NCBI RefSeq assembly: GCF_016107525.1
Contig: NZ_JABASR010000001.1
Coordinates: 62,001-126,000, forward strand
DNA: 64,000 nucleotides
Direction: 5' to 3'
Source: Psychrobacter aquimaris
GTDB taxonomy: Bacteria > Pseudomonadota > Gammaproteobacteria > Pseudomonadales > Moraxellaceae
Positions 34,987 to 36,787 of this stretch are shown here, one piece after another. The translations under genes were made by a program, and so were the position numbers. Position 1 is the stretch's first letter; each line of letters opens with the position of its first letter. The notes beneath the pieces are model-generated. The model saw nothing but the letters and a program-made list of their open reading frames with translations. It searched no databases and was not told where the DNA came from.

Positions 34987-36636
34987 CTATTCGGTACCAA
35001 ATTGCTTGCGCTTTTTGGCAAAGAAGCGTTCTAAGCGGTCCATGGCATCCTCTAAATCATGTAAGTTTGGCAAAAATACCAAGCGGAAGTGATCTGGCTT
35101 ATCCCAGTTAAAGCCTGTTCCTTGCACCATTAAGACATTTTCTTCAACAAGCAAATCCATCATAAATGCCATATCATCTTCGATAGGGTAAATGTCAGGA
35201 TCCATCTTTGGAAAGCAATAAAACGCGCCTTGCGGCATGGTACAAGAGATACCTTTGATAGCATTAAGTCGTGACACGGCCATTTCACGCTGCTTATATA
35301 AGCGTCCGCGTTCTGACGTTAGGTCTTTCATGCTTTGATAGCCACCCATTGCCGTTTGAATGGCATACTGACCTTGGACGTTAGAACACAGACGCATAGA
35401 TGCTAACATGTCTAAGCCTTCGATAAAGTCGGCGGCATGGTGTTTTTTGCCAGATACCATCATCCAACCTGCACGGAATCCTGCGATACGATGCGACTTT
35501 GATAAGCCATTGTATGAGAGCACCAATACGTCATCAGTCAAGGTGCTCATTGGGGTGTGTACCATATCATCATAAAGGATACGATCGTAAATCTCATCGG
35601 CCATGATGATTAAATTATATTCTTTAGCAACCTCAATAATTTGTTTTAGCAATTCATCACTATAAAGTGAACCCGTTGGGTTATTGGGGTTAATTACCAC
35701 AATACCTTTAGTTTTAGAGGTGATTTTAGATTTAATGTCTTCGATATCAGGGTGCCAGTTATCGTCTTCATTGCAGCGATAATGTACTGCTGTGCCGCCA
35801 GATAGGTTCGCCGCTGCCGTCCAAAGTGGGTAGTCTGGCATCGGGATAAGCACTTCGTCACCATCATTCATCAACGCCTGCATGGTCATCACAATTAGCT
35901 CAGAAACCCCATTGCCTAAATACACGTCACGGACATCAACTGCCGATAGCAACCCCTTTGATTGGTAGTACTGTAAGACGGCTTTACGCGCTGAAAAAAT
36001 CCCTTGCGAGTCGGAATAGCCGGTCGCGTCTGGCAAATTCATCGCCACATCGCGCAAAATCTCATGCGGGGCTTCTAGACCAAAAGGTGCTGGGTTACCG
36101 ACATTCAGCTTTAATATACGTTTGCCTTCTGCTTCCATCTTATTGGCTGTTTGTAATAGCGGGCCGCGAATGTCGTAGCAAACATTTTGCAATTTATCCG
36201 ATTTTTTTATTGTGTTCATAGCGTGACCACTCATAGGGTTGTTTTGTGAGTTTGTGTCTGTAGTAGGGGTTGAAGCTGTTTGACTGGCTTGTGATTCATG
36301 TATCTTGTCAGCTTGAGCGGGTGCCGTACTTTGACTGTTTTTGTTATGAGAATGAGCGCTCTTACCCACCTCTTTATCCTTATCACTGTCGTTTTTTAGT
36401 TCACCGCGTAACAGATAGCCTTCACTGCAGCCTAAAATGTGTGCGAGCGTTGGCAGCTTAGATGACACAATACCGTTGGTGCCACGCTCCCAATTCGAGA
36501 TAGCACCGCGACTGACTTTTGCACCTGCTGCAGTCATGGCTTGTGCTAATTGTTCAGCAGTGAGCCCTTTATCACGACGTAGCTGTACCAGTCTTTCAGC
36601 TTGTGTGCCTTTGCTCTTGTCATCAGCCATAATCAT
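34987..36636 (-). CDS. XRE-type HTH domain fused to AlaA-like aminotransferase
   Basis: 549-residue fusion. Residues about 12-78 form a Cro/CI-type helix-turn-helix domain (LVQLRRDKGLTAEQLAQAM, VSRGAISNWERG, LPTLAHILGCSEGYLL). A Ser/Gln/Asn-rich linker covers 80-138. From M140 the protein aligns with full-length E. coli AlaA (glutamate-pyruvate aminotransferase, 405 residues): LQNVCYDIRGPLL, NPNNPTG, DEIYDRILYD, and the PLP lysine in LSYNGLSKSHRIAGFRAGW. No ribosome site precedes M140, so the fusion is real. AAGG supports the start at 36636 or the ATG two codons later. The upstream gap carries four copies of AATGCAAG, a likely target of its own HTH. Confidence 0.9.
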   Translation of the reverse strand: MIMADDKSKGTQAERLVQLRRDKGLTAEQLAQAMTAAGAKVSRGAISNWERGTNGIVSSKLPTLAHILGCSEGYLLRGELKNDSDKDKEVGKSAHSHNKNSQSTAPAQADKIHESQASQTASTPTTDTNSQNNPMSGHAMNTIKKSDKLQNVCYDIRGPLLQTANKMEAEGKRILKLNVGNPAPFGLEAPHEILRDVAMNLPDATGYSDSQGIFSARKAVLQYYQSKGLLSAVDVRDVYLGNGVSELIVMTMQALMNDGDEVLIPMPDYPLWTAAANLSGGTAVHYRCNEDDNWHPDIEDIKSKITSKTKGIVVINPNNPTGSLYSDELLKQIIEVAKEYNLIIMADEIYDRILYDDMVHTPMSTLTDDVLVLSYNGLSKSHRIAGFRAGWMMVSGKKHHAADFIEGLDMLASMRLCSNVQGQYAIQTAMGGYQSMKDLTSERGRLYKQREMAVSRLNAIKGISCTMPQGAFYCFPKMDPDIYPIEDDMAFMMDLLVEENVLMVQGTGFNWDKPDHFRLVFLPNLHDLEDAMDRLERFFAKKRKQFGTE

Positions 36637-36702
36637 TCAAGCCTTTGTTAATTAGTTGGTAATAGAGAGAATAAAAGTAAGCATTTGTTTTACTCAAGCC
36701 GT

Positions 36703-36787
36703 AATGCAAGATATTATTGCATTATTAGTAGCAATGCAAGCTCTTTTTAAGAGGGTTATATTTGATAATGCAAGAATAACTTGCATT
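36703..36787. promoter_or_regulatory. Cluster of AATGCAAG operator-like motifs
   Basis: AATGCAAG occurs on the plus strand at 36703-36710, 36733-36740 and 36767-36774, and inverted (CTTGCATT) at 36780-36787; the last two form a perfect dyad with the spacer aataa. A partial inverted half (TGCATT) also lies at 36718-36723. Spacing is 30 and 34 bases, about three helical turns. The cluster lies 67-151 bases upstream of the HTH-aminotransferase start. The rest of the gap up to msrB (36788-37106) shows no gene. Confidence 0.65.

Follow-up and report, generated by a model that had tools for sequence, protein, structure and literature searches.

The window analysed here, a 64,000-nucleotide stretch of the Psychrobacter aquimaris contig NZ_JABASR010000001.1, encodes a predicted alanine transaminase of the AlaA type that carries an N-terminal HTH domain of the XRE (Cro/CI) class. 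The fusion is real and very probably regulatory; the enzyme itself is ordinary, and what is unusual is the repeated acquisition of different domains. Matching DNA sites accompany the fused domains, and the fused domain therefore very probably makes AlaA the controller of its own production. The gene, its parts and its neighbour are as follows.

34987-36636, minus strand: whole gene, HTH-AlaA fusion, 549 aa plus stop (ORF call, Pfam, solved-structure match, conservation in the genus)
36400-36597, minus strand: XRE (Cro/CI) HTH, residues 14-79 (Pfam HTH_19 and HTH_3; PHROG; dN/dS 0.025)
36220-36393, minus strand: linker, variable and probably disordered, about residues 82-139 (identity, dN/dS, pLDDT)
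34990-36210, minus strand: predicted AlaA alanine transaminase, residues 143-549 (Pfam, solved relative, alignment)
35497-35499, minus strand: PLP lysine K380, equivalent to K240 of E. coli AlaA (alignment and PMC4094517)
37107-37532, plus strand: msrB-like gene, divergent neighbour of HTH-alaA (ORF; pair common to most genera with and without the fusion)

The XRE assignment proposed in the first-pass annotation was borne out by two Pfam models above their cut-offs in the window protein, HTH_19 at residues 14-79 (E 2e-7; 31.3 bits against 30.2) and HTH_3 at residues 18-75 (25.6 bits against 23). The recognition helix lies around VSRGAISNWE, and the PHROG matches of the domain are phage-repressor-like. 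All Pfam matches at the N-terminus were to XRE-type HTH families and none to a GntR-type winged HTH, while Aminotran_1_2 occupies residues 174-533 (E 6e-60). The fusion gene is present in 40 other genomes of the genus, with open frames of at least 524 aa; this conservation, together with low dN/dS, confirms that the HTH-linker-AlaA arrangement is not a chance frame.

The closest solved structure is E. coli AlaA (4cvq), which matches over residues 134-540 (E 7e-169), and the enzyme half is 58% identical to an E. albertii AlaA; with plain AlaA proteins of proteobacteria it shares about 58-62% identity. The residues mapped from the active site described for the E. coli enzyme are Y15, I17, R18, P20, Y68, S105, Y129, N179, Y210, S239, K240, R248 and R378 (PMC4094517); their equivalents in the window protein (alignment A3) are, in order, Y154, I156, R157, P159, Y207, S245, Y269, N319, Y350, S379, K380, R388 and R518, all of them invariant. 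The catalytic lysine and the substrate-binding residues thus appear complete by alignment, and the earlier description of a full-length AlaA half with its lysine intact stands. The enzyme half can be placed among the AlaA-type alanine transaminases, with that activity predicted. E. coli AlaA (4cvq; PMC4094517) has the same enzyme half and the same active-site residues, but no DNA-binding domain. The next best AlaA match in the window genome has 27% identity, leaving the fusion as the sole close AlaA there.

Selection on the three parts was compared over 30 loci of the genus (mean identity, median dN/dS). The HTH (94% identity, dN/dS 0.025) resembles the enzyme part (93%, 0.012), whereas the linker has drifted (27%, 0.65); strong purifying selection thus acts on the HTH in its own right. 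Comparison across the genus thus establishes both the architecture and the selection on the HTH. In the single, low-confidence model of the window protein, HTH helices are placed at residues 12-23, 27-36, 43-50 and 58-67, with no structure over about residues 72-158 and a linker pLDDT of about 25. Both this model and that of the Acinetobacter form considered below (mean pLDDT 66) are of low confidence, and Foldseek gave no significant match for the latter.

The region upstream of the gene contains palindromes of the type TGCAAG-N5-CTTGCA, arranged around a proposed promoter.

36767-36787, no strand: operator palindrome 1, AATGCAAGAATAACTTGCATT, 64 bp from palindrome 2 (0 expected by chance)
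36702-36724, no strand: operator palindrome 2, TAATGCAAGATATTATTGCATTA, spanning the proposed -10
36733-36740, no strand: operator half-site AATGCAAG, spanning the proposed -35 TTGCAT, 17 nt from the -10
36711-36716, minus strand: proposed -10 TAATAT, 74 nt before the ORF

The placement of the half-site and of palindrome 2 leads us to read TTGCAT-N17-TAATAT as a promoter over which the operator sites lie, although TTGCAT is a weak match to a -35 and a generic promoter scan did not list this promoter. This layout recurs in the genus. At least one TGCAA-type palindrome precedes the gene in 29 of 30 genus members and both do so in 24, the exception being a locus (L016) with 182 nt upstream before the contig end, within which a site would nonetheless be expected. 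The hexamer enclosed by palindrome 2 is TAATAT in 27 of 29 loci and TAAAAT in two; in 25 of the 29 it is preceded, at a distance of 18 nt, by a CTTGCA or TTTGCA half-site.

The sites are largely peculiar to alaA. The pattern AATGCAAG-N3..9-CTTGCATT has a single match in the window, before alaA (chance expectation 0). TGCAAG-N5-CTTGCA has one copy in the window genome, located 133 bp upstream of the ORF, and 40 of the 45 genus genomes contain one or two copies each. The looser ATGCAA-N5..9-TTGCAT is found at four further places in the window genome, where a reversed control pattern gives two matches per strand. The sites also follow the domain: 33 of 48 XRE-fused loci in the family have a TGCAA-type palindrome (0.05 in shuffles), against none of the 72 other alaA loci, which have another N-terminal domain or none (120 loci in total). 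The XRE-fused genera beyond the Psychrobacter- and Moraxella-like groups are without a TGCAAG-type operator, and in one group TTTGTCAG-N5-CTGACAAA takes its place. Palindromes that are linked to the domain and nearly unique to alaA are read as a sign of autoregulation, and the suggestion that the enzyme controls its own gene is accordingly upgraded to probable; the companion suggestion, that it controls other genes as well, is so far hardly supported. Operator copies elsewhere are rare.

Several loci depart from this pattern. In three XRE-fused loci (L070, L243 and L244) the TGCAAG palindrome is replaced by TTTGTCAG-N5-CTGACAAA and the recognition helix reads VSRAAI in place of VSRGAI, perhaps reflecting a change of specificity. 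One Moraxella-type alaA (L092, genome G063) lacks the HTH, and the TGCAA palindrome is absent as well. A record of Moraxella phage Mcat18 (KR093642.1, positions 1-1676; L246) contains a complete HTH-alaA gene that starts just inside the annotated attL, and a second phage record, Mcat15, matches HTH-alaA likewise; either the end of the prophage was set within the alaA promoter of the host or alaA is part of the phage.

The family-wide search for the architecture covered 149 genomes, and N-termini were read at 120 alaA loci. Besides the XRE fusion seen in the first-pass annotation, alaA of this family shows fusions to other, unrelated DNA-binding domains: 48 loci carry an XRE domain, 25 an StbA-like domain, 7 a second HTH-like domain (G13, so called by sequence pattern alone, with no match to a family model) and 4 a domain related to an IncQ2 plasmid protein (G11), while 36 have none. 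No Pfam family was matched by the non-XRE domains. The divergent msrB-alaA pair is kept in most genera, fused or unfused, and the locus is therefore a single orthologous one. In the enzyme tree, G13 and G11 form one group each and the unfused genera fall outside the crown; unfused rows are scattered within Acinetobacter, and the HTH-less Moraxella-type row lies among XRE rows. Samples of the class and of the phylum, and 71 named loci, yielded no such fused domains outside the family; those long frames before alaA outside it that were checked look like read-through and contain no recognisable domain. One genome of the family (G020) has two unfused alaA genes (L236 and L237), whose products share 65% and 57% identity with the window enzyme.

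The StbA-like domain is in frame with alaA in about 123 of 176 Acinetobacter genomes; matches were obtained in 125, two of which hold solely stand-alone, plasmid-like copies. Against NCBIfam StbA_2 the N-terminus scores 25 bits (E 2e-5), below the equivalog cut-off of 100, so that the domain is considered a relative of StbA and not StbA itself. The solved StbA (7pc1) is matched at E 3e-5, or 3e-6 with a profile, and these matches point to a distant relationship, which is based on sequence. Stand-alone plasmid-type proteins 53-56% identical to the Acinetobacter domain (G551:C2:4725-4886, G498:C5:11838-12002 and NZ_CP098733.1) are of the type from which the domain was likely captured.

This form has sites of a different kind. 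Upstream of each of the 25 fused Acinetobacter loci stand between three and five AGCAAA-type repeats, one pair of which is set at a distance of 11 bp (10 bp in a single locus); each of the 16 unfused loci has at most one such word. The trait and the repeats agree in 39 of 39 tree rows, where gains and losses on supported Acinetobacter branches are few and amount to one independent pair. Of five genomes tested, four contain the exact triple-repeat pattern a single time, at alaA; in the remaining one (G110) the second repeat carries a base change. The sites bound by R388 StbA are 9-bp direct repeats with 2 bp between them, an 11-bp period (PMC3098194), and the Acinetobacter fusions thus share with it both domain type and 11-bp direct-repeat layout (PMC3098194; 7pc1). 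R388 StbA is, however, a plasmid stability protein that is not joined to an enzyme, and the likeness is that of the Acinetobacter form and does not extend to the window gene.

The G13 genes carry yet another palindrome, ATAGG-N6-CCTAT, 45-53 nt before the start in all seven (0 of 113 other loci), whereas no clear operator was found upstream of the four G11 (IncQ2-like) fusions. With palindromes accompanying XRE, direct repeats the StbA-like domain and a palindrome of its own G13, each of these domains has its own putative operator, a pairing likewise established by comparison of sequences. XRE regulators are known to use palindromes and StbA direct repeats, and the operator geometry agrees with both. 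On balance we favour the reading that one and the same locus took up at least three unrelated DNA-binding domains in independent events, including a relative of a plasmid stability protein; each domain would have brought its operator along or evolved one, and, as every fused form keeps an internal start, the gene would yield both a repressor-enzyme and a plain enzyme.

The internal start lies at the junction of linker and enzyme.

36226-36232, minus strand: RBS-like GAGTGGT before the internal ATG (sequence; anti-SD pairing)
36217-36219, minus strand: Met140 within the ORF, candidate start for a short, plain AlaA (Met retained in 84 of 84)

A methionine is present within the 22 codons before the enzyme in all 84 fused genes of the family, against a Met frequency of 1.3% elsewhere in the linker. 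Anti-SD pairing at the internal starts averages -4.8 kcal/mol, a figure slightly favoured by choosing the best-pairing Met in each gene; the corresponding averages are -4.1 for the start codons of unfused alaA and -1.7 for the remaining linker codons. The retained methionine and its pairing make a short plain AlaA from this start likely. Such a form would fit a need for enzyme that exceeds the supply by the repressor form. The methionine could also be a relic of the old start, but the drift of the linker speaks against this. The proposal that absence of the HTH from close relatives, with a separate start at M140, would tell against the regulator idea was answered in both directions: the HTH is found throughout the genus, but M140 does resemble a second start that was kept.

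From these comparisons we infer DNA binding, repression by dimers, a short form and, possibly, ligand control, which may be combined as follows. The long product, HTH-linker-AlaA, would form the usual AlaA dimer and so pair two HTH domains, which would bind the palindromes over the alaA promoter and repress it. AlaA started at M140 would supply the plain enzyme, and mixed dimers would be possible. We hold it likely that AlaA regulates itself in this manner, with the captured domain repressing alaA and the gene giving a long regulatory and a short enzymatic form; unrelated DNA-binding domains would have led to the same solution several times in the family. In E. coli AlaA the N-terminal arm is mobile and folds into the active site upon binding of a substrate mimic (PMC4094517), so that DNA binding could depend, through the equivalent arm, on the state of substrate or cofactor, a suggestion to be taken with caution since the linkers are long and unstructured. 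A response to pyruvate, alanine, glutamate or PLP state, as put forward in the first-pass annotation, may be conceivable.

The ligand link is the one point denied by the strongest alternative, a fixed autorepressor that sets the level of the enzyme while the enzyme half senses nothing, which is otherwise compatible with the core of the proposal and to which we give slightly less than an even chance. The near confinement of the sites to the alaA promoter agrees with it, as does the fact that several domain types serve and that their long, variable and probably disordered linkers speak against tight coupling of active site and DNA binding; against it, the domain adjoins the arm that is mobile in the E. 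coli active site, and fusion was favoured repeatedly over a separate repressor gene. A protein that is mainly a regulator with a wider regulon and the enzyme half as sensor, as in the MocR regulators, is improbable: the order of HTH and PLP fold matches, but the active site is complete, the gene is the sole close AlaA in the genome (next best 27%) and operator copies elsewhere are rare. That the N-terminal domains are fusion by-products, the repeats belonging to another regulator, is very improbable, since the HTH has a low dN/dS and the operators come and go with the domain and differ in kind for each, even though several lineages are without the domain or have lost it.

GabR and PdxR, of the MocR subfamily of GntR regulators, likewise consist of an N-terminal DNA-binding domain, a linker and a fold type I PLP domain, but the DNA-binding domain is a GntR-type winged HTH and other genes are regulated, whereas in the family of the window gene XRE, StbA-like or other domains are placed on a housekeeping AlaA. 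The nearest solved relative of the enzyme half is, unlike in MocR, plain E. coli AlaA. The distinction from MocR drawn at first reading, an XRE-type HTH and a full-length enzyme half, therefore holds, and the fusion is of the bifunctional enzyme-regulator kind. PutA, BirA and NadR are metabolic enzymes that carry their own DNA-binding domain and control genes of their own pathway, with enzymes and domains different from those of the AlaA fusions. We know of no bifunctional enzyme-repressor that gained unrelated DNA-binding domains repeatedly within one family. No description of an alaA fusion was found in a literature search of partial coverage; the architecture may already be annotated, presumably under the automatic model name 'bifunctional HTH-domain containing protein/aminotransferase'.

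If the proposal is true, the family offers a natural repeat experiment on enzymes becoming regulators, with the same enzyme and locus, different domains and matching operators, and the question of why an alanine transaminase needs self-control becomes directly testable. It would also predict that in Acinetobacter, A. baumannii among them, a housekeeping enzyme has a regulatory form; one A. baumannii copy is annotated simply as an aminotransferase.
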